Origin: a virus
DNA length: 58,580 nucleotides
Reading direction: 5' to 3' (one strand)
IMG/VR virus record: IMGVR_UViG_3300032431_000011
Location: 1 to 58,580 of that record
The translations under genes and the position numbers were made by a program. Under the pieces are notes generated by a model. It did not search any database and had not been told where the DNA came from. It saw only the letters and a program-made list of their open reading frames with translations. The stretch's first letter is position 1, and the number at the start of each line of letters is the position of its first letter. Positions 1,351 through 57,015 of this stretch are shown in pieces.

Positions 1351-1760
1351 GGAAACGGCTCGGCGGTTTGAACCGCCTTGAATCTTTCCATTACCGCATT
1401 GGAGTTGCTTGACTTGGTGTACTTTTGTAATGTACTTTCAGCAGGACAGTTACTACCTCAAATCTCACAACCCTGTACGCATAATGTTTGCTCTTTTGGA
1501 GCCTCCCTTGCGGGGTAATGTTTGCTTCGCCAATGTTATAAGAGCTTTTTAGATTTGCAGCACTGTTTCAGTGACTTTAAAACTGTTTAACTGCAAATGA
1601 CAGGGCAGGGGACTAGCAAGATTCCAGGGTGTCGTGACTCAAAAAACGTAGTCAGTTAAGACTTAGGCTGGTCAGAATAGCTTGCTTCAACTTTCGTCTT
1701 ACAAGCTCAGTGGCTTTAGCCCTGAGTTCCTGACAGGAGTAACCTACTATGCTGAAGCAC

Positions 1761-13631: not shown

Positions 13632-14411
13632 TTACAAAATTGGAACTATAGCAAAAGTTGGATTAAACTTAACCTTAATTCTGTGAGTTTCCTTCATCCC
13701 TCTCCTGTCTAGAGCTTCCTGAATTGCTGATTGAATTAAAACAAAAAAATCAATTGCTAGTTTGTCGCCCGTAACAGAGTTTTCGTGTTTCCTGTATTGA
13801 TACAGATACTCATTTATTTTCCCTATTTCTGTAATTTCCGACAGTCGCAAGCAAATGTCATAGTCCTCAATTGTGTCAAATTCCGTGCGAAAACCACCAA
13901 TTTCTAGGTACGCAGATTTTCGCATCATTCGGAAATGAAACGCCATAAAAACTGACAAAATTCGCTCTTTAGAATACGGAATAGAGCATCGCCAGCCGGG
14001 CCGCATTTTTTGCCCATTCGCATCAATATCTACATAATTTGTATACACCAACCCCCAGTCGGGATTATTGTCAAGCGCTGCGACTGTTAGCTCGATTGCC
14101 TGTTGTTCCAGTAAATCATCAGAGTCAAGTTGCCCAATATACTCTCCGCGCGCCGCACTAAACCCCGCAATCAGCGCATTTGCAGCCCCTCTGTTAGCGT
14201 CATCTGCTGGTCTGTTGGGGTTGGTCAATACCCGAATTCTAGGGTCACGCTCCGCGAAGTTCTGGGCAATCTCTAAGCTCCCATCTGTGGAACCGTCATC
14301 AGAAATTATCAGTTCCCAGTTTTTGTCTGTTTGCCAGATGACGCTTTCGATGGCGGTTTCAAGGTAACGTGCGCGGTTGTAAACTGGGATAACAATAGAA
14401 ACAAAAGTCAT
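13632..14411 (-). CDS. Family 2 glycosyltransferase (259 aa)
   Basis: Typical GT-A start VSIVIPVYNRARYLETAIES, then DKNWELIISDDGSTDGS and the metal-binding GQLDSDDLL (DSD as the DxD motif). The later FDTIEDYDICLRLSE matches the usual ED acceptor-side motif. It transfers a sugar from a nucleotide sugar in the cytoplasm. It is the last gene of a leftward trio with a sulfotransferase and an AAA ATPase, set among virion genes. A role in decorating virion or host surface glycans is plausible. It ends two bases from the convergent Pro-Thr gene. Confidence 0.9.
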   Translation of the reverse strand: MTFVSIVIPVYNRARYLETAIESVIWQTDKNWELIISDDGSTDGSLEIAQNFAERDPRIRVLTNPNRPADDANRGAANALIAGFSAARGEYIGQLDSDDLLEQQAIELTVAALDNNPDWGLVYTNYVDIDANGQKMRPGWRCSIPYSKERILSVFMAFHFRMMRKSAYLEIGGFRTEFDTIEDYDICLRLSEITEIGKINEYLYQYRKHENSVTGDKLAIDFFVLIQSAIQEALDRRGMKETHRIKVKFNPTFAIVPIL

Positions 14412-14455
14412 ATAAATATACAGACAAATTATTCATCAAATATAGCAGATTCATA

Positions 14456-15346
14456 TTAATTTTGCGTTACACATTTATAGCCAAGCTTTTCTAAGTTGCG
14501 CCAATTTGTTAATTCAATATTTTCTACCTCTATGGCGCTTAATTCATTACGCCAAGCATCAATCCTTGCTGATTCAATTGGCTTGAAAGTCATTGGATTC
14601 AAACCAGCCTGACTTGGTAGCACTAAGTTCAACTCCACATTCTTCTGATAGAACAACAGCATTGACTCGTCAAAATCCAAGCCTAGCCAGTTACACAATT
14701 TTAATAATTCTATTGACGGATTTGCGACCAACTCTTCGTACCGAATCAGAAAGAATTGGTCGCAGTCGCGGTATTTTTCAACTAGCTTCGTTACGGCATC
14801 CCACTGACGCGCCATTCCTTCTAAGTCTCTGGGGCCAGTCCAAACCTTTTCCGCTCTTAATTCTTTTGATAAAATTGCTTGCAATGAACTGTAGCAGGCT
14901 CGAAAATCTCGAAGAATCAAAACAACCCTAGCACTTGAAAAGTGTTTCCAAATTATTTCTAATTGGTGGATATGGCAAGGGTTTTTATCTCCCCAGACCA
15001 AAGAGGTTGGAGCAAACTGTTGAAGATAGCCTTGGTATACCGAGTTTATGGCTAGCGCATAGCTTAAAAAATTATATCTTTTTAAATCCCTAGATAAAGC
15101 TTGTCGATTGACACCCCACTGGCAAAATTTAGGAAATCTTGATTTGTCGTAAAGACTGTTTAAAAAATCTTCAATCTTGTTTGACAGGTTTCCGATGTTG
15201 CCGTACTCTTTTTCTAGAGAAATGAAAAAAAGACTTTCAGGAGGAATGCAAATACCCGGATGAGTCGTTAGCAGTAGTCGTAAAAGAGTCGTGCCAGAAC
15301 GTGGCGCTCCTGTTACAAAAATAGGGTTAACTTGGTGATTAAGCAT
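14456..15346 (-). CDS. PAPS-dependent sulfotransferase (296 aa)
   Basis: The 5'-phosphosulfate loop FVTGAPRSGTTLLRLLL sits at the N-terminus, followed by LRLLLTTHPGICIPPE. VVLILRDFRACYSS corresponds to the 3'-phosphate binding region with its conserved arginine and serine. LIRYEELVANP is the usual C-terminal family segment. It would move sulfate from PAPS to a sugar or tyrosine. The start is taken at the ATG at 15346; a TTG at 15364 is less likely. Transcribed after the AAA ATPase gene (35 bases apart) and before the glycosyltransferase. Confidence 0.85.
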   Translation of the reverse strand: MLNHQVNPIFVTGAPRSGTTLLRLLLTTHPGICIPPESLFFISLEKEYGNIGNLSNKIEDFLNSLYDKSRFPKFCQWGVNRQALSRDLKRYNFLSYALAINSVYQGYLQQFAPTSLVWGDKNPCHIHQLEIIWKHFSSARVVLILRDFRACYSSLQAILSKELRAEKVWTGPRDLEGMARQWDAVTKLVEKYRDCDQFFLIRYEELVANPSIELLKLCNWLGLDFDESMLLFYQKNVELNLVLPSQAGLNPMTFKPIESARIDAWRNELSAIEVENIELTNWRNLEKLGYKCVTQN

Positions 15347-15381
15347 AAATACAAAGAATAACAACTGAAACTTTAAAAAAT

Positions 15382-16236
15382 TTATTTATAACTTGGCATT
15401 TCCTTGCTTTCTTGAATTGCACCCATCAAAAGTGGTTGAGTTACAGCTTTAAGTTGATGTTGCAAGATAGCAGTTTTAGCAGCATTCTGAGCAACTTTTA
15501 CAACCTGTGCAGCAGAGAATCCGTCCATTTCTGGCAGCAAAATATCCCAGTCTAACTCTTCCGTTTGAGTAGTTTTGGGAAAAGAAACTTGCAACGTATG
15601 AACCAGTAGCAATTGAACTTCACGCTTGCTCGGTTTTGGTAGCTCAATCACGTCATCAAATCGTCGCCAAACCGCCGAATCTAAAGATTTGGTCAAGTTG
15701 GTTGCCATCACAATCAACCCATTGTCGGGATTGTATTCGTCTAAAACTTGCAAGAAAGTATTAACTATTCGCTTAACCTCGCCAACGTCTTTATTGTCTT
15801 CTCTTGTTCTGAGGATAGAATCACACTCATCGAAAAACAAAACGCATGGAGTTTCGCTAATCTCGTCAAAAACCTTTCTTAGATTCTTGGCTGTATCTCC
15901 TAAAAACGATGATAAAATTGAGTCAAATTGCACTTTAACCAGTGTTAAGCCAGTATTCCATGCTAGACGCTCGGCTCCAAGGGTTTTCCCACAACCAGGG
16001 ACTCCGTACAACAGAATCTTTTGCCTGTAGTGCAGGTTGTGAACAGCCAATCTAGCTCGTGCTGCATACTCGCACTCAATGCGACGGAATCGGTCTTCAA
16101 CAGCATCGGGTAGCACCATGTCGTGCCGTAGTTTTTCTCGCTCTACAATTGTTGCCATTGATAACTTGTCTCGATTCAATGGTAATGGAATCAACGTCCT
16201 TTCAAGGATTGATTGTTTAGTGGCGGTTCTAGGCAT
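15382..16236 (-). CDS. AAA-family ATPase (284 aa)
   Basis: Walker A LLYGVPGCGKTLGAERLA (about residues 76-92), Walker B VLFFDECDSI, sensor 1 VMATNL and an arginine pair DSAVWRRFDDVIELP as arginine finger. This is the single-AAA layout of FtsH/SpoVK-like remodelling ATPases, but with no protease or membrane segment. In the family, ATP hydrolysis remodels proteins or complexes. First gene of the leftward trio, divergent from the second sulfotransferase across only 34 bases. Its partner is unknown. A chaperone for virion assembly or for the adjacent modifying enzymes is a guess. Confidence 0.88.
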   Translation of the reverse strand: MPRTATKQSILERTLIPLPLNRDKLSMATIVEREKLRHDMVLPDAVEDRFRRIECEYAARARLAVHNLHYRQKILLYGVPGCGKTLGAERLAWNTGLTLVKVQFDSILSSFLGDTAKNLRKVFDEISETPCVLFFDECDSILRTREDNKDVGEVKRIVNTFLQVLDEYNPDNGLIVMATNLTKSLDSAVWRRFDDVIELPKPSKREVQLLLVHTLQVSFPKTTQTEELDWDILLPEMDGFSAAQVVKVAQNAAKTAILQHQLKAVTQPLLMGAIQESKEMPSYK

Positions 16237-16270
16237 GATATTATTGGTTTAGTGTTATTAAAATTGTATC

Positions 16271-17047
16271 ATGCAACGATTCTTTTTAGTCGGATGTCCT
16301 CGCAGTGGCACGACAATTTTTCAAAGCTTATTAGCCGCGCATCCAGAAATCAATACATTTCCAGAAACTAAGATTTTTCAATACACCTTATGGGATGGAT
16401 TTCGGCACAAACTGCCTGAGCGGTTGCAGCGTTTCTTTTATTTTAAAATAATGCGTCCAGAGTTGCTAGAACCTTTTAGAGAATGTCAGACAACTGAAGA
16501 AACGATAATATGGTTTATCGGCGTTCTGGATGGATTGACAATTGAGAACGAGAAAAATATCTGGGTAGAAAAGACACCCGAACATATATTTTTTATTCCT
16601 GAAATCCAGCGCTATGTTCCTGACGCAAGATTCATTCATATCACTAGAAACGGGTTAGATACGATTGCATCTTTGTGGGAAGCTACCCACATGACCGAAA
16701 ATCAACCATGGGGCGGACAGTGGACGTTAAATCATTGTATACAGAGATGGAAAGATTCTATCAAAATCACCGAGAAGTACGCTGAAAACAAGAATCATTT
16801 GATAGTTAAATACGAACGACTAATCTCCCACAAAGTCGAGGTATTGACTGAGTGCTGTAATTTTGTCGGCATTGGCTACAGCCCTGTCATGCTCACTGAT
16901 TACAGGTTCCAAGCTTTAAACCTGGGGGGAGGAATGCCGTGGCATCAGGGTATTGACAGAGATATTGAAGCACCCGCAATTCCTAAATACAAGAAAGTAT
17001 TTCAGCAGCAAGAGATTGAATATATCCTTGACAAAATTCAAGAGTAG
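16271..17047 (+). CDS. Second PAPS-dependent sulfotransferase (258 aa)
   Basis: MQRFFLVGCPRSGTTIFQSL carries the PAPS loop. HPEINTFPETKIF follows, then ARFIHITRNGLDTIASLWEA as the 3'-phosphate motif, and LIVKYERLISHKVEVL. It is only distantly similar to the leftward sulfotransferase at 14456, so the two probably act on different acceptors. It lies immediately before the tail-fibre gene at 17089, which makes fibre or receptor glycan sulfation an attractive but unproven idea. Confidence 0.85.
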   Translation: MQRFFLVGCPRSGTTIFQSLLAAHPEINTFPETKIFQYTLWDGFRHKLPERLQRFFYFKIMRPELLEPFRECQTTEETIIWFIGVLDGLTIENEKNIWVEKTPEHIFFIPEIQRYVPDARFIHITRNGLDTIASLWEATHMTENQPWGGQWTLNHCIQRWKDSIKITEKYAENKNHLIVKYERLISHKVEVLTECCNFVGIGYSPVMLTDYRFQALNLGGGMPWHQGIDRDIEAPAIPKYKKVFQQQEIEYILDKIQE

Positions 17048-36008: not shown

Positions 36009-37418
36009 ATGCCCGTAAAACAATACAAGAAATTACCCGTCAAGTCATCAGATTTAATACTCAAGCCACAGTCAGGGCAACAGGAAGTGTTCTTAACTAC
36101 CTCGGCAGATTTTTGTATTTACGGCGGCGCGGCAGGTGGAGGAAAAACTTATGCACTGCTACTAGAGGCTTTACGTCATATAACAAATCCAAAATTTGGT
36201 GCCGTCTTTTTTAGACAAAGTTTTCCTCAAATAACCGAAGAAGGCGCACTTTGGGATACTTCAGAAGACATCTATCCGCTATTAGGTGCAATCCCTAGAA
36301 GAGGTACGCTTGACTGGCTGTTTCCTAGTGGCGCAAAAATAGGGTTTGGACACTTGGGAAACGAGCAAGCTAAGTACAAGTATCAAGGTAGTCAAATTCC
36401 CCTTCTACTGATAGACGAATTAACACATTTTAGCGAATCAGTTGTTTTCTATCTGTTTAGTCGCAACCGCTCAACTTGTGGAATTCGCCCCTATGTTCGT
36501 TGTACAACTAACCCCGATGCCGACTCTTGGATTGCAGGGTTTATTGATTGGTGGCTAGATGACGAAGGGTTCCCAATTCCAGAGCATAGTGGAGTCGTTC
36601 GCTACTTTGTTCGGCAGAGTGGCGAGATTGTTTGGGGTAGCTCAAGAGATGAACTTGAGAATAGATATCCTGACTTAATGGCAAAAAGTTTCACTTTCAT
36701 TCCTGCTAAAATCGAAGACAATCAAATTTTGATGCAACAGAACCCGGAGTATCTGGCAAATCTTCAGGCGCTGCATCCAGTAGACCAAGCTCGACTACTT
36801 TACGGAAATTGGAGGGTTAAGGAAGAGTCGGGGAAGCTATTTAACCGCGCTTGGTTTGAAATTGTTGATGATGTTCCGCCTTTAGATTACAACGGTGAAG
36901 AAGTTAGGTTTTGGGATTTGGCGGCAACAGAGGCGGCCGTTCGTTCTAACGCCTGCTATACCGCCGGAGTCAAAATGCGATTAGTTGATGAAATTTATTA
37001 CGTGGTTGACGTTATCGCTGAACAAGTTGGGCCTGTTGGCGGTGACGAATTAATGATAGCAACCGCGCAACAGGATGGATTGTGGTGTAAAGTCCGTTGG
37101 GAGTTGGAAGGGGGAAGTAGTGGAAAACGCGACGAGGAGCATATCAAACAATTACTAATGGGATTACACTCAGACATTGATGCAGAAGGTGTCCGACCAC
37201 TCGGAGACAAGGTGAAACGTGCAAAGCCTTTGGCTACTGACACTTTTAGGGGGAAAGTCAAGCTTCTACGAGCCTCGTGGAATGACAGATTTTTAAGCTG
37301 GATGCACGATTTTCCTGATGGGAAAGTCAAAGATATTACCGATGCTGCTTCTGGTGCACATTTCTGTCTAAATGAACCTATTCGATATCAAACAGGCATT
37401 GGATATTACAAGAGTTAA
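36009..37418 (+). CDS. terL: Terminase large subunit (469 aa)
   Basis: Walker A-like YGGAAGGGKTYALLLEAL (about residues 37-53), Walker B-like IPLLLIDELTHF, coupling motif CTTNPDAD. The nuclease half has VRFWDLAATEAAVRSNA (catalytic D), VDVIAEQVGP and KVKDITDAASGAHF with the last acidic residues. It packages DNA into the prohead with ATP and cuts it. Length is slightly short for the family but all motifs are present. A small gene overlaps or follows its end. Confidence 0.93.
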   Translation: MPVKQYKKLPVKSSDLILKPQSGQQEVFLTTSADFCIYGGAAGGGKTYALLLEALRHITNPKFGAVFFRQSFPQITEEGALWDTSEDIYPLLGAIPRRGTLDWLFPSGAKIGFGHLGNEQAKYKYQGSQIPLLLIDELTHFSESVVFYLFSRNRSTCGIRPYVRCTTNPDADSWIAGFIDWWLDDEGFPIPEHSGVVRYFVRQSGEIVWGSSRDELENRYPDLMAKSFTFIPAKIEDNQILMQQNPEYLANLQALHPVDQARLLYGNWRVKEESGKLFNRAWFEIVDDVPPLDYNGEEVRFWDLAATEAAVRSNACYTAGVKMRLVDEIYYVVDVIAEQVGPVGGDELMIATAQQDGLWCKVRWELEGGSSGKRDEEHIKQLLMGLHSDIDAEGVRPLGDKVKRAKPLATDTFRGKVKLLRASWNDRFLSWMHDFPDGKVKDITDAASGAHFCLNEPIRYQTGIGYYKS

Positions 37419-50729: not shown

Positions 50730-52057
50730 AAAAACAGCGATTTTTGGGGTTTAGGTTGATTGCGGCCTTTCTGTTGATGCCAACAAAAAGGTCTTGTTAG
50801 AATGTTTCAATCCCTGATAGGGGTTTAGGTTGATTGCGACCGCAGAAAGCTAAGTCCACAGCAGCTTTACTCTTGCCGTTTCAATCCCTGATAGGGGTTT
50901 AGGTTGATTGCGACGTTGCATCCTCCGAATTAAATTGCCCAAACCTTTGTTTCAATCCCTGATAGGGGTTTAGGTTGATTGCGACGTTTTGCCGCCGAAA
51001 GCACATATCAGATGGCGCGGTTTCAATCCCTGATAGGGGTTTAGGTTGATTGCGACGTATGTTGGCAGACATTTTGGCTGGAACACTCGAGTTTCAATCC
51101 CTGATAGGGGTTTAGGTTGATTGCGACGGCTTAGGACTGCCAGAACCGACATTCCAAGTTGAGTTTCAATCCCTGATAGGGGTTTAGGTTGATTGCGACC
51201 CAATTACCCGCTAACAGCGCCGTGCTAACTGCCGTTTCAATCCCTGATAGGGGTTTAGGTTGATTGCGACTGGGGTTTGTGCAGCACATGATTGCTAGTC
51301 TGAGTTTCAATCCCTGATAGGGGTTTGGGTTGATTGCGGCTGCATTTATGGCATCGTAGTCCATGCCACCACCGATGTTTCAATCCCTGATAGGGGTTTA
51401 GGTTGATTGCGACGTTTCTCGAAATCTGCTTCAGCTTTTTCCAGTGAGTTTCAATCCCTGATAGGGGTTTAGGTTGATTGCGACACTTGTTTTCACTTCT
51501 AGCGGGATTTTGGTTAAGGTTTCAATCCCTGATAGGGGTTTAGGTTGATTGCGACGTCACGAACTAGAAGATGCAAAGTTAGTCACCAAAGTTTCAATCC
51601 CTGATAGGGGTTTAGGTTGATTGCGACAATAGAATCGAGTCTAACCCAGCTTGGCTAGTACGTTTCAATCCCTGATAGGGGTTTAGGTTGATTGCGACAG
51701 GCATTGATAGGAATTAGTCCTGCCTTTTGAGCGAGTTTCAATCCCTGATAGGGGTTTAAGTTTATTGCGACGAGGGGATGGACTTCACAAGGATTATAAC
51801 CTATGGTTTCAATCCCTGATAGGGGTTTAGGTTGATTGCGACGGAATAATCATAACCGACCGCTACCGTGTTAAGCGTTTCAATCCCTGATAGGGGTTTA
51901 GGTTGATTGCGACTGTAGCCAAGGAATTCGGATATCACTCCGGCCCGCTGTTTCAATCCCTGATAGGGGTTTAGGTTGATTGCGACTGTAGATAAAGCGA
52001 TTATCGCCTCTGCCAAACATGTTTCAATCCCTGATAGGGGTTTAGGTTGATTGCGAC
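50730..52057 (-). CRISPR. CRISPR array, 18 repeats plus one degenerate terminal repeat
   Basis: Repeats of 37 nt start at 50804, 50878, 50949, 51020, 51091, 51163, 51234, 51304, 51377, 51448, 51519, 51591, 51662, 51735, 51806, 51877, 51950 and 52021. Spacers are 33-37 nt. A degenerate copy at 50730-50766 keeps GGGGTTTAGGTTGATTGC. Variants are at 51304 and 51735. Read on the minus strand the repeat starts GTCGCAATC and ends GGGATTGAAAC, the usual 3' handle. The degenerate copy then lies at the leader-distal end. No cas genes are in the window, so it would depend on host Cas proteins. Confidence 0.97.
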
Positions 52058-52225
52058 CGCAGACGTGTGAAATCGTTGGTGTATCTAGTTTTCAAGATTG
52101 AGTTGCGGTAAATCGACTCCCGCAATTGCAAAAGTGTTATGGAAAGATTGAATATTATTCAGTTTTCGTGGTTCGGTTAAGTCTATTGTAATCGAAGATG
52201 CGAATCCTGTCAACCCAATTTTCTA
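52058..52225 (-). promoter_or_regulatory. CRISPR leader region
   Basis: AT-rich stretch next to the intact repeat end of the array. TTGCGG/CCGCAA arms (about 52102-52125) form a small hairpin. No ORF. Placed here because the terminal degenerate repeat is on the other side and the repeat handle reads leftward. An exact promoter was not identified. Confidence 0.55.
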
Positions 52226-52227
52226 AT

Positions 52228-52250
52228 AAAAAAACCCGCTTTCGCAGGCT
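52228..52250 (-). terminator. Leftward terminator upstream of the CRISPR leader
   Basis: On the minus strand AGCCTGC-GAAA-GCGGGTT followed by TTTTT. It would insulate the array from leftward transcription entering from the BRO-N side. Confidence 0.6.
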
Positions 52251-52260
52251 TGAGATGAAA

Positions 52261-52372: not shown

Positions 52373-52394
52373 AACCCGGTGTGACTGCCGGGTT
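52373..52394 (-). terminator. Leftward terminator after the BRO-N gene
   Basis: AACCCGG (52373-52379) and CCGGGTT (52388-52394); on the minus strand the stem is followed by a T-run (52366-52374). Confidence 0.8.
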
Positions 52395-52428: not shown

Positions 52429-52767
52429 TTAATCAAGCCACTCAAGGGAATAACTGTTAGTTCTGAATACAACCGGAAAGACCACAAGTATCGCCCACTT
52501 GCGGAACTCTTTAGCCTCTGGTTTGCTATTTGAGGAAACTAAGACAAGCATTCCAGACTCTGAAATTACCGACATATCTTGATTGCCTTCAAGGGTGTCC
52601 ACAGAAGCAATACTTTTCTTGCCTTCATCTAAAAGGCTCAATGCTTGACTAACATTTTCAAGACCTAAAATGACACAAACGTCATTAGCCACAAACCAAG
52701 GCAGTCCTTCAATAGTAACTACTCGAACTTGTTGAGTATTAAAGTCAAACTCTGTTAGATCAGCCAT
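52429..52767 (-). CDS. BRO-N domain antirepressor-like protein (112 aa)
   Basis: FDFNTQQVRVVTIEGLPWFV then ANDVCVILGLENVSQALSLL is the standard BRO-N/Ant start, and DEGKKSIASVDTLEGNQDMS, VISESGMLVLVSSNSKPEAK, EFRKWAI complete the domain. The usual C-terminal KilA-like or Ant domain is missing; the last 25 residues (LVVFPVVFRTNSYSLEWLD) look like the usual end of the N-domain. Such proteins bind DNA and act as phage antirepressors. Single gene with its own terminator. Confidence 0.85.
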   Translation of the reverse strand: MADLTEFDFNTQQVRVVTIEGLPWFVANDVCVILGLENVSQALSLLDEGKKSIASVDTLEGNQDMSVISESGMLVLVSSNSKPEAKEFRKWAILVVFPVVFRTNSYSLEWLD

Positions 52768-53652: not shown

Positions 53653-56600
53653 GTGAGTAACAAAGTATCACTCGATTATCTTTTGTACAATGACCTGATA
53701 GTGAAATCAGGCATTGATGAGGATATTGCCCGTTTGAATTTCCTTGCCTCACAAGGCCTTGCGACCTACGGACTCCTCTACAGCGAAACAGATAAAACGA
53801 CTAATAGCGATAGCAGCGGTGGCAGCAGTGTAGAGGCGGCCCGCAATCTTGCTCGGTGTACTGGGAGTGCTGGGTATACGCTAGGCAACAAATTTTATCT
53901 ACCCGCAGATTTAGCCGGAGATACCAAAGCGGCCAGATTTGGGATTATCAAAGAAAAAGGTATTTACTGGTCTGCGGGTCAACCTGCGAGGGGATGGACT
54001 TGCAATGGCCGCTTTAAACAACTTGATGGGATACCGCTTGGCTACAAGCAAAAAAAAGAACGCAAAGGATTTGGCTTGGAGCCCCGAACATACTTCCAGC
54101 CCAAAGGGGAGCCATTAGAAATCTTCTTTCCTTTAGTAAATGAAAGTATTGGGAAACTGATACTAGCCAAGGCTAATTTGCCTGTACCAGAATTTCCTGT
54201 AATTGGGTTACGGGGAGAATGGATTGATTTTTGGGATTTGATACTTAATAATCATTGCCCAATCGTAATTACTGAAGGTGAAAAGAAAGCAGCAGCGGTA
54301 ATCAGTCGTGGGTATGCAGCAATCGGATTACCAGGAATAAACACCGGGTACAAAGTTACCGAACGCGGCGAGAGCGTCACAAAAGCTGATGGAACACAAT
54401 ATCAAAGAGCAACTGCACGAGAACTCCACGAATCACTCAAACCGTTTGACACAGAAGGTCGTGCAATAACAATTCTCTTCGACTACCGAGATGGGGATTA
54501 TTCACAAAGTTCAGAATTCAAAGCGTCCAGCACTTTAAGCAAATTATTCAAAAGTGCAATTGTTAAAGTTGCACTTTTGCCAGGCCCGGACAAAGGTGCT
54601 GATGATTTTGTAGTTGGGGGCGGTAATCTTACCAAGGTAATTACTGATGCTCAAGATTGCCGAAAGCTGGAAATAAAAGCACAGTGGCGGCGTTATAGGA
54701 ATTACATTCCCGATTGCATAATCAACTCCCGATTCTTTCATGCACCCGCACCAGCCTCCGGCACAATTACAGCCATTAAAAGCGGTCTAGCGACGGGAAA
54801 GACTCAATGGCTCAAAGATATCATTGCCAGCAATCCAGAAGGCAGAATCATTGTTTTGGGGAGTCGGAATGGGCTGCTCTTGCAGACAGCCGAAAAATGC
54901 GAGTTTTACCACCTTGATGCTCACAATGGGTATTTGATGTTTCGTGACCCTAACGCCCGCCTATGCCTGTGCTTTGATTCGCTGCTCAAACTTCCTCCTG
55001 ATATTTTTGAAGGCGCGACAATCATTTTGGATGAAACCGAAAGCGTTATCAGGCACTTACTAATGTCCCCGACTCTGAAGCACAATAGGGAAGCGATTAA
55101 ACAACTATTCGCTCAAGCTTGTCAAGATGCTAGCCGAATAATTTTGCTGGATGGGCATCTAACAGATTACACAGTTAGTGTGATTGCAAAGCTCGCGGGC
55201 AACAAGCCAATCACAAAATACCTGAACGAATATAAAGGCAATTGCCCGAAAATTAGCGTTTACCAAACTGAAAAGGCAACTGCGACAGCAGCCGAAAAAC
55301 AGGACTTTATTAATAGAATCCTAGCCTCGGATTGTCCAGTAATTGCTACAGATTGCTCTGTAGCCGAATCAGAAGCCCTTGCCTTGAGCCTAACCGAGGT
55401 AAAAGGTAAAGGCCTTTTAGTATGCTCAAAAAACTCAAATGACCCTGAAGAAACTGCCTTACAAACCAACCCCGACGCCCATCTTGGAAAAGAAATCCTG
55501 AACTGGTTTGCTTACACGCCTACACTTGAGAACGGGCTTGATATTAGCACGTCTGGAAAGTTTTCGGATGTATTCGGATTGTTCTGCGGGAATCTGGGGA
55601 TTAATTCACTAATCCAGATGTTACGGCGTGTAAGGCATCCTATCAATCAAATCTCGGTTCTTTGCCCTCAAATTGGGCTTAGCAGCAGTGACGATAAAAA
55701 GTCGTATTACGATAATCAAATCAGGCATCAAATAGAAGCTACTATTTCTATTGAAAGCACGTTGCTATGCCCATCAGAGTATGAAGAAGCTGTCAGGGCT
55801 GACATTCTCCGGCAATTGGATGACCCGCTATTTTATGCCTATTGTCACTACAAAGCTCAGGAGAATTTAGAGAAATCCAATCTAAGAGAATTTTTGATAG
55901 AAGCCTTGATAGACGGCGGATACGAGGTTAATGAGCCGATATTGAATGAAGATGAATCCGGCGACCATGCTAACAAAAAAACTGCCTGCAAGGAGCAAGA
56001 ATCACAGGAAATATTCAACTCTCCTGATATCGCACTAGAGGAAGCTCAAGAAATATCTCGCAGAAACAAAGCAAGGTGGCCCGAAAGATGCCAAGCTGAA
56101 AAAGCGTTTCTCAAAGCAAGATTGCCAGCAATTGAAAATACAGAACTGTGGAAATGGGAATTTGTACACAGAATTCGAGGTAAGGATAGTTCCCTATTAT
56201 CTCAATTAGAGAATTCTTGGCTATTCCACAATCCAGAGGATGCTGAATACTTGCAGAAATCTAAATGGGAATCGGACGGGCTTGAATCCTTCCTACCTGA
56301 CCACAGCACCCGCTGGCTGAAACTCCAAGCACTTCGCGAACTCAACATAATACAATTCCTAAATCCTGCTGACGCTTCTTGGACTAATGAATCAATAGAA
56401 ATTAAAAAGCTCTTGAAAGGTGGAGAGCGCAAAGGCATTCGGAAAATACTGGGGGAGCCGGGCAAGGACGGCATCAAGTACCTTAATAAATTGTTGGGGC
56501 TGATAGGCATAAAGTTGGTGTCCAGACGGACGCGGGGAGGAGATGGGAAACGGGGATATGAGTATTTCTACCAGCCGGAGGTAACGTGGAAGGAAAGCAA

Positions 56601-57015
56601 AACCGGTCTGACCCGTATATGCTCCTTGGCTGAAAATTGGCACGAACTTTTTGACTTGACAGCAGCCAGGATGAGTCAAAAAACTGAAGCAAAAAGAGCA
56701 TCTGTAAAATCGGCTGAAACCGCTAGTCCGTCTAGTGTTGGGGCTGGCCTAGATACTCCTATTTTTATTAATAATCAAATAGGAGTATCTAGGACAGCAT
56801 CAGCTACCCAAACAGAGCCATCGACTAACCCCCAAAACCCCAAATCCTCCGAATCTATCGGCAGGATGGGCTGGGTGAGTCGATGGGGGAAATGGGTGAG
56901 AGCTTGCTTTGTGGCAGCCACGGACGACGCGCAGTACCGGATGCTGATAGAGCAAGTAGGCGAGGTTCTGGCCTGGCCCGACAAGATTCGATGGGAGGTG
57001 CCCCTTGAAGTTTGA
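53653..57015 (+). CDS. CyRepA1-like plasmid replication protein (1120 aa)
   Basis: The GTG start follows GGGGG. The N-terminal region contains GIPLGYKQKKERKGFGLEPR and a TOPRIM-like DUF3854 block PIVITEGEKKAAAVISRGYA, AIGLPGINTGYK then ITILFDYRDGDYSQSS (E...DxD). The next domain has a Walker A-like IKSGLATGKTQWLKDIIASN and a Walker B-like ATIILDETESVIRH, followed by helicase-like ILLDGHLTD and MLRRVRHPINQISVL. This primase/ATPase order is the cyanobacterial CyRepA1 replication initiator plan. It marks the element as plasmid-capable. Confidence 0.8.
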   Translation: MSNKVSLDYLLYNDLIVKSGIDEDIARLNFLASQGLATYGLLYSETDKTTNSDSSGGSSVEAARNLARCTGSAGYTLGNKFYLPADLAGDTKAARFGIIKEKGIYWSAGQPARGWTCNGRFKQLDGIPLGYKQKKERKGFGLEPRTYFQPKGEPLEIFFPLVNESIGKLILAKANLPVPEFPVIGLRGEWIDFWDLILNNHCPIVITEGEKKAAAVISRGYAAIGLPGINTGYKVTERGESVTKADGTQYQRATARELHESLKPFDTEGRAITILFDYRDGDYSQSSEFKASSTLSKLFKSAIVKVALLPGPDKGADDFVVGGGNLTKVITDAQDCRKLEIKAQWRRYRNYIPDCIINSRFFHAPAPASGTITAIKSGLATGKTQWLKDIIASNPEGRIIVLGSRNGLLLQTAEKCEFYHLDAHNGYLMFRDPNARLCLCFDSLLKLPPDIFEGATIILDETESVIRHLLMSPTLKHNREAIKQLFAQACQDASRIILLDGHLTDYTVSVIAKLAGNKPITKYLNEYKGNCPKISVYQTEKATATAAEKQDFINRILASDCPVIATDCSVAESEALALSLTEVKGKGLLVCSKNSNDPEETALQTNPDAHLGKEILNWFAYTPTLENGLDISTSGKFSDVFGLFCGNLGINSLIQMLRRVRHPINQISVLCPQIGLSSSDDKKSYYDNQIRHQIEATISIESTLLCPSEYEEAVRADILRQLDDPLFYAYCHYKAQENLEKSNLREFLIEALIDGGYEVNEPILNEDESGDHANKKTACKEQESQEIFNSPDIALEEAQEISRRNKARWPERCQAEKAFLKARLPAIENTELWKWEFVHRIRGKDSSLLSQLENSWLFHNPEDAEYLQKSKWESDGLESFLPDHSTRWLKLQALRELNIIQFLNPADASWTNESIEIKKLLKGGERKGIRKILGEPGKDGIKYLNKLLGLIGIKLVSRRTRGGDGKRGYEYFYQPEVTWKESKTGLTRICSLAENWHELFDLTAARMSQKTEAKRASVKSAETASPSSVGAGLDTPIFINNQIGVSRTASATQTEPSTNPQNPKSSESIGRMGWVSRWGKWVRACFVAATDDAQYRMLIEQVGEVLAWPDKIRWEVPLEV

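Follow-up and report, generated by a model that had tools for sequence, protein, structure and literature searches.

A CRISPR array in a cyanophage record, probably the remainder of a type V-U2 locus and a candidate for use by host type I-D Cas proteins

How does a phage come to carry a long array of clustered regularly interspaced short palindromic repeats (CRISPR) with no cas gene beside it, and whose Cas proteins would read the array? The question is raised by IMG/VR virus record IMGVR_UViG_3300032431_000011 (58,580 bases, referred to in full as the window), which contains terminase, portal, P22-like coat, and replication genes and, on its minus strand, a CRISPR array at 50730-52057. A preliminary description regarded this locus as an orphan array of a phage-plasmid, used with host Cas proteins in competition between viruses or plasmids. 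The exact window repeat is found in two other IMG/VR viral contigs, G001 (a 17.8-kb fragment) and G002 (83.9 kb), and comparison of the three records indicates that the array is probably the remainder of a type V-U2 CRISPR locus that belonged to the phage itself. In the reading that we consider rather probable, loss of the V-U2 effector left an effector-less guide cassette, which host type I-D Cas proteins would use.

Structure and orientation of the array

The array is real and far beyond chance, comprising near-identical direct repeats and unique spacers of similar length. Sixteen of the 18 intact 37-nucleotide (nt) repeats are identical (GTTTCAATCCCTGATAGGGGTTTAGGTTGATTGCGAC), those at 51304 and 51735 have two mismatches each, and the 18 spacers (33-37 nt) are all different. 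The leftmost unit (50730-50766), with 13 mismatches to the repeat, brings the array to 19 units, and the number of units and spacers given in the preliminary description was borne out. On the minus strand the repeats terminate in GGGATTGAAAC. A leader with a promoter-like site lies at the right end, and leftward orientation, likewise proposed earlier, is indicated by the ATTGAAAC 3′ end of the repeats, the right-end leader matching host leaders, and the leftward promoter. Furthermore, two terminator-like hairpins, recognized from the sequence, would shield the array from upstream genes. The features are as follows, with YongM denoting a Nostoc phage and N-1 a cyanophage.

50730-52057, minus strand: CRISPR array, with the minus strand as the CRISPR RNA strand; 18 intact repeats, one chimeric half repeat, and 18 spacers
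52058-52213, minus strand: leader; its first 50 nt (GTATCTAGTTTTCAAG..GTTGCG) are common to the leaders of host, N-1, and YongM arrays
52213-52185 (52185-52213), minus strand: promoter-like motif TTGACA-N17-TACAAT (11/12), reading into the array
52232-52251, minus strand: terminator-like hairpin upstream of the leader promoter
52373-52394, minus strand: second terminator-like hairpin, after the minus-strand open reading frame (ORF) 52429-52767
51987-52020, minus strand: spacer S1, leader-proximal and presumed newest; no target found
51271-51303, minus strand: spacer S11, matching hsdM (type I restriction-modification), with GTT upstream of the closest protospacers
50841-50877, minus strand: spacer S17, identical to a spacer of sister phage G001
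50767-50803, minus strand: spacer S18, the oldest; its homologue in G001, differing by indels, is likewise the oldest there

Cas1 was not found in the window, and PADLOC, applied to 86 window ORFs and 20 G002 ORFs, gave no window cas gene among the 25 of 141 matched families listed; within this scope, the window element has no type I-D cas genes of its own. A PADLOC match to RT/Cas1-IIIb was rejected as a cas gene and judged to be a group II intron reverse transcriptase in G002 (L012).

Probable effector loss and spacer turnover among three related phages

The backbone of G002 is 95.7% identical to the window over 75% of the window, and that of G001 is 94.1% identical over 14%. The array occupies the same genomic place in all three records, with colinear flanks and a leader that is 95-97% identical over 310 nt. 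In G001, a 611-amino acid (aa) ORF (L007 8791-10626) lies at the older end of the array, with 42 nt between its end and the nearest complete repeat, and is matched by PADLOC Cas12u2 (E 1e-116); judged from its sequence, this protein (P0001) is a type V-U2 effector, C2c8/Cas12u2. Among 72,556 plasmid records, E 1e-20 is reached only by a Microcystis protein that NCBI names C2c8 and that adjoins a 23-repeat array with the TTTTCAAGG leader motif, and its best match among phages is the published V-U2 effector of Aphanizomenon phage vB_AphaS-CL131. The Microcystis and CL131 proteins are 32 and 33% identical to the G001 effector, respectively, and D310, E452, and D554, which we take to be RuvC residues, are invariant in all three. 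In G002, only the first 169 codons of a G001-type effector (98% identical) are present and run directly into an array repeat. In the window, no match to the effector was found, and no TnpB-like C2c8/Cas12u2 effector lies beside the array.

The leftmost unit of the window array marks the place of the change. The preliminary description took it as a degenerate terminal repeat, that is, as decay of the array end; comparison with the sisters identifies it instead as the junction scar of a deletion.

50730-50766, minus strand: deletion scar (chimeric leftmost "repeat"), from comparison with G001 L007 10600-10800 and G002 L009 3160-2901
50603-50749, minus strand: TnpB-like gene remnant of 147 nt, 98% identical to G002 L009 3002-3148

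The left part of the scar is the flank of the TnpB-like gene, ending ..ATTTTTGGGG, and the right part, GGGGTTTAGGTTGATTGCGGC, is repeat; the junction falls inside a shared GGGG (50746-50749) and is resolved to within four bases. Up to ..CAGCGATTTTTGGGG, the window follows G002, which continues there inside a TnpB-like ORF, and from GGGGTTTAGG.. onward it matches the G001 repeat and first spacer. The G002 counterpart of the remnant is a 381-aa ORF (L009 2445-3590) adjoining a TnpA-like ORF, both names being readings of the translations. Because the effector occupies one site in both G001 and G002 and the oldest spacer is common to the window and G001, the most parsimonious course of events is a loss in the window lineage, and we infer from the three records that the ancestor carried the effector. 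By sequence, the window array is thus probably derived from a type V-U2 locus and no longer a member of that type. The designation as an orphan array without a cas gene, given earlier, holds for the window as far as Cas1 and the listed PADLOC families reach, but the array probably descends from a phage-encoded locus, and a cas gene adjoins the same array in the sister phage, which goes halfway towards the refutation envisaged in that description. Effector-less phage arrays were already known, but their origin is rarely visible; here, the intact, truncated, and deleted states of one effector gene stand beside the same array. Together with a leader shared with the adaptation system of the host, this series provides a testable case of phage arrays that lose their effector and keep using that of the host.

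The spacers number 18 in the window, 11 in G001, and 5 in G002. S17 occurs unchanged in G001, the first 29 nt of S11 agree with a G002 spacer, and 15 of the 18 window spacers are unshared with G001 or G002. S17 and S18, both shared with a sister, stand at the leader-distal end, as acquisition at the leader end predicts. Hence, to judge from the alignments, spacers have been largely replaced, while leader, promoter, and most repeats stayed intact.

Upstream of the effector, G001 also contains a methyltransferase-like and a QueC-like gene (L007 4300-7400), both possible DNA-modification genes; the window has no match to this region.

Host type I-D systems and the target of spacer S11

The nearest repeats in genomes belong to Microcoleus, Lyngbya, the filamentous isolate Phorm 6, and an uncultured cyanobacterial metagenome-assembled genome. 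The genomes bearing them in our comparison (G003-G008) all fall within one family set of 61 genomes, and we infer that filamentous cyanobacteria of the Microcoleus family are the hosts. Matches of host spacers to the phage group point the same way. Arrays of the window repeat class in six genomes and one Nostoc plasmid provided 496 different spacers, eight of which match the phage group at 82% identity or more, ungapped (6 of the 44 of G003 and 2 of the 44 of G007, the remaining five sources giving none), three of them hitting the window itself; reversed spacers gave no match among 496. A gapped match to window 53404-53372 fails this rule and is not counted. The triplets upstream of the eight protospacers, all of which entered the count of the protospacer-adjacent motif (PAM), are GTT (three), GTC (two), GAC, ATC, and CTG; GTN therefore precedes five of eight (binomial P 2.6e-5 with the window's own GT frequency as expectation).

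Arrays of the window repeat and leader class adjoin cas1d in G008 and cas10d and cas1 in G005 and G006, and an Anabaena plasmid has the same leader beside cas2-cas1d-cas4; the array class is thus found beside type I-D genes. The genes adjoining host arrays L044 and L048 are not cas genes. Type I-D systems are described as having a GTN PAM, spacers of approximately 35 nt, an 8-nt handle, and conserved leader motifs (PMC10212523). The repeat class, the leader, and the PAM-like flank all agree with type I-D of the hosts, and the use of host Cas proteins, as put forward in the preliminary description, is therefore the best reading for the window record.

S11 is the only one of the 18 window spacers with a target found. 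On two cyanobacterial plasmids, it agrees with hsdM at 30/33 and 29/33 positions. With up to three mismatches allowed over 29 nt, a search of 291 genomes of the order gave nine with a match and a search of 61 family genomes gave two, against none for the reversed pattern. The family-set member G240 matches the core at 29/29, with GTT upstream, and its locus comprises hsdM followed by hsdS, an unknown gene, a Cap15-like gene, and hsdR, the hsdM-hsdS-hsdR set being intact. Spacer 5 of G002, the near copy of S11, starts at the same base and matches the G240 hsdM at 34/35. The triplets upstream of 11 hsdM loci are GTT (six), TCT (four), and CAT (one). Given these matches, an anti-phage defence encoded by the host or by a plasmid would be the target of at least one guide. 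As a separate observation, a cyclic-dinucleotide-receptor-like (Cap15-like) gene lies inside the type I restriction-modification locus at L098 1262-9936.

For the other spacers, the whole window array gave no target in the phage collection and only that of S11 among plasmids, so that searches of both collections, suggested at the outset, were productive in the latter alone. Six of the 18 (S17, S10, S9, S7, S5, and S13) were scanned in viral contigs as peptide-degenerate or exact patterns and gave no match except that of S17 to G001's own array; S17 had no match in the 291 genomes and S9 none in the 61 family genomes. Related-virus targets were found neither in the window, G001, and G002 nor in the phage collection and the viral contigs (the latter for these six). 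The G001 array against phages and plasmids, and the G002 array against plasmids, gave only repeat-class matches and the hsdM match of G002 spacer 5. Self-targets in the window were rejected (best 24/37, the level of chance), and short matches to Latilactobacillus, Flavobacterium, and Providencia were judged to be chance. These results do not support competition between viruses or plasmids as proposed: no spacer was found to match a phage, and the one target found, a restriction-modification gene, occurs on plasmids as well as in genomes. Similarly, the "structural-protein flavour" once seen in frames of the spacers is uninformative; all 18 hold at least one open frame, as expected for approximately 11 codons, and no structural-gene match was found.

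The proposed mechanism would proceed as follows. During infection, the array would be transcribed leftward from the leader promoter, and host Cas6d would cut each repeat to leave the 8-nt handle AUUGAAAC. Host type I-D Cascade with Cas3, and perhaps type III effectors, would then be guided against DNA with a 5′ GTN. New spacers would be added at the leader end in trans by host type I-D Cas1-Cas2-Cas4, which would recognise a familiar leader and repeat. S11, like its G002 counterpart, would direct cleavage or silencing of hsdM in a type I restriction-modification system; the phage could benefit through removal of restriction, killing of a rival plasmid that carries the gene, or damage to the host chromosome. 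If active, S11 would be an example of a phage turning CRISPR on restriction-modification. A broader proposal, which we regard as possible but doubtful, is that cyanophages repeatedly shed their own V-U2 nuclease and keep leader and array as a rechargeable cassette, reprogramming host type I-D against restriction-modification genes of hosts and plasmids, two sisters having guides to the same hsdM site. If true, this would be counter-defence by borrowed CRISPR.

Alternative explanations and related viral arrays

Several observations weigh against use of the array by host type I-D Cas proteins. The exact window repeat had no match in the genome-contig collection. Only one of the 61 family genomes has a repeat within one mismatch (G004), and this complete genome showed neither Cas1 nor Cas10d. 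GTN is enriched but not universal (five of eight host-spacer protospacers, with GTT at 6 of 11 S11 loci). The last 4-5 nt of S11 differ from every hsdM found, which may reflect an allele outside the examined set or mutation of S11, and 17 of the 18 spacers are without a found target. The leader-proximal repeat of G001 is degenerate, and recent acquisition there is therefore less likely. The predicted folding of the repeat RNA is no more favourable than that of shuffled sequences (z -0.67), three records underlie the proposed history of the effector, and sharing of the type I-D leader is also compatible with type III effectors or with a V-U2 effector from another element. With regard to G004, this genome is Microcoleus vaginatus HSN003 (L014/L049/L050), in which large arrays are present and family searches gave no Cas1 or Cas10d match.

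Some of these points would equally be expected of a decaying relic, in which the effector was lost and a functionless array simply awaits deletion: the effector is lost or truncated in two of three records, nearly all spacers are without a known target, and the leader-proximal repeat of G001 is mutated. However, 16 of 18 intact repeats are identical, the leader and promoter region is 95-97% conserved across the three records, and the 15 unshared spacers behind a shared leader point to turnover after the split; a relic is thus unlikely. In another explanation, array transcripts act as a decoy (an RNA anti-CRISPR), filling host Cas6 or Cascade with useless guides and blunting immunity. Host arrays target the phage group, the phage repeats resemble those of hosts, and PMC11656645 describes isolated repeat units of phages in such a role. 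For a decoy, however, an array of 18 spacers that turn over, with a target next to a PAM-like motif, would be more than necessary, and those described are single repeat units, which makes this role quite improbable for the window array. The array might also still serve a V-U2 effector in trans, provided by a sister phage infecting the same cell or by a plasmid of the host, and bind or cut targets such as hsdM. The G001 effector is intact with its D/E/D residues, and the same kind of protein stands beside arrays in the Microcystis plasmid and CL131; nevertheless, no V-U2 gene was found in the window or the examined host loci beyond weak TnpB-like matches, and the layout of effector and array, convergent in G001 and co-directional in the Microcystis plasmid, makes their pairing uncertain, so that we give this explanation little credence. 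Finally, an assembly or binning artefact joining a host array to phage sequence might be suspected of IMG/VR contigs, which are not cultured isolates, but it is largely refuted and very improbable, as the leader-side flank is common to the three records, the two relatives carry different IMG sample numbers, and the array is embedded in long colinear phage sequence.

The preferred reading, an array used by host type I-D Cas proteins after loss of the phage effector, has partial precedents. Cyanophage N-1 carries five repeats and four spacers without matches, and its array is transcribed in infection, according to Chenard et al. 2016 (PMC4916379); a phage array of the same class can therefore be transcribed during infection. 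Both are cas-less arrays of filamentous-cyanobacterial viruses with 37-nt DR5-like repeats (GTTTCAATCCCTGATAGGG...) and the same leader motif, although the window differs from N-1 in having 18 spacers, one target, related phages whose spacers have turned over, and an effector loss that can be traced; megablast of window 30000-54999 against N-1 gave no match. In CL131, a type V-U2 locus with a TnpB-like effector beside an array of 10 spacers is described (PMC6293099). It resembles the G001 locus in joining a cyanophage V-U2 effector to an array, whereas CL131 retains its effector and has a smaller array with a 36-nt repeat of another class. The archaeal viruses SPV1 and SPV2 carry mini-arrays of one or two spacers, mainly against related viruses (PMC6858448). 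As in the window, these lack cas genes and have a host-like leader with a promoter, and related viruses have different spacers at the same position; unlike in SPV1/SPV2, no virus target was found for the window array and the single target identified is a restriction-modification gene. Huge phages carry host-like repeats without interference or adaptation genes, may borrow host Cas proteins, and have guides that may hit host genes, as PMC7162821 describes; the window phage is not huge, and V-U2 ancestry and the scar are specific to it. Solo virus arrays are reviewed in PMC11656645. Our literature search brought up neither a phage lineage that shed a V-U2 effector yet kept its array nor phage guides against hsdM, which is weak evidence of absence since most subscription papers were outside the search.

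Nostoc phage YongM (MT426122.1, 62763-62870; L057 1507-1614) contains two identical 37-nt repeats and one spacer with the same leader motif. This mini-array is not annotated as CRISPR in the record, where a small ORF is annotated, and the term "CRISPR" has no occurrence in the main text of PMC8875764. Furthermore, Microcystis phages Ma-LMM01 (in "56 bp repeat unit" annotations) and MaMV (in unannotated stretches) have BLAST matches to the window repeat class (H1-H6).

As for the genome context, two genes serve as landmarks.

36009-37418, plus strand: terminase large subunit
53653-57015, plus strand: DUF3854 and helicase replication protein, the leader-side neighbour of the array

The designation as a phage-plasmid is tentative: structural and replication genes are present, but the 25 of 30 Pfam families listed for 106 ORFs include none for partition or integrases. 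A 24.8-kb cyanobacterial genome contig, G106:C324 (L081 18750 - L082 123), encodes a terminase 68% identical to that of the window and is a possible relative residing in a cyanobacterial genome; no array of the window repeat class was found in the pieces of this contig examined. HEARO RNA (Rfam RF02033) is found at window 1515-1734 (minus strand) and G002 L009 1-177. In G002, it is followed by a 423-aa ORF (L009 201-1472), read as IscB-like, and no such full ORF adjoins it in the window. Lastly, a glycosyltransferase, two sulfotransferases, and an AAA ATPase are clustered at window 13632-17047, possibly for decoration of the surface or virion.
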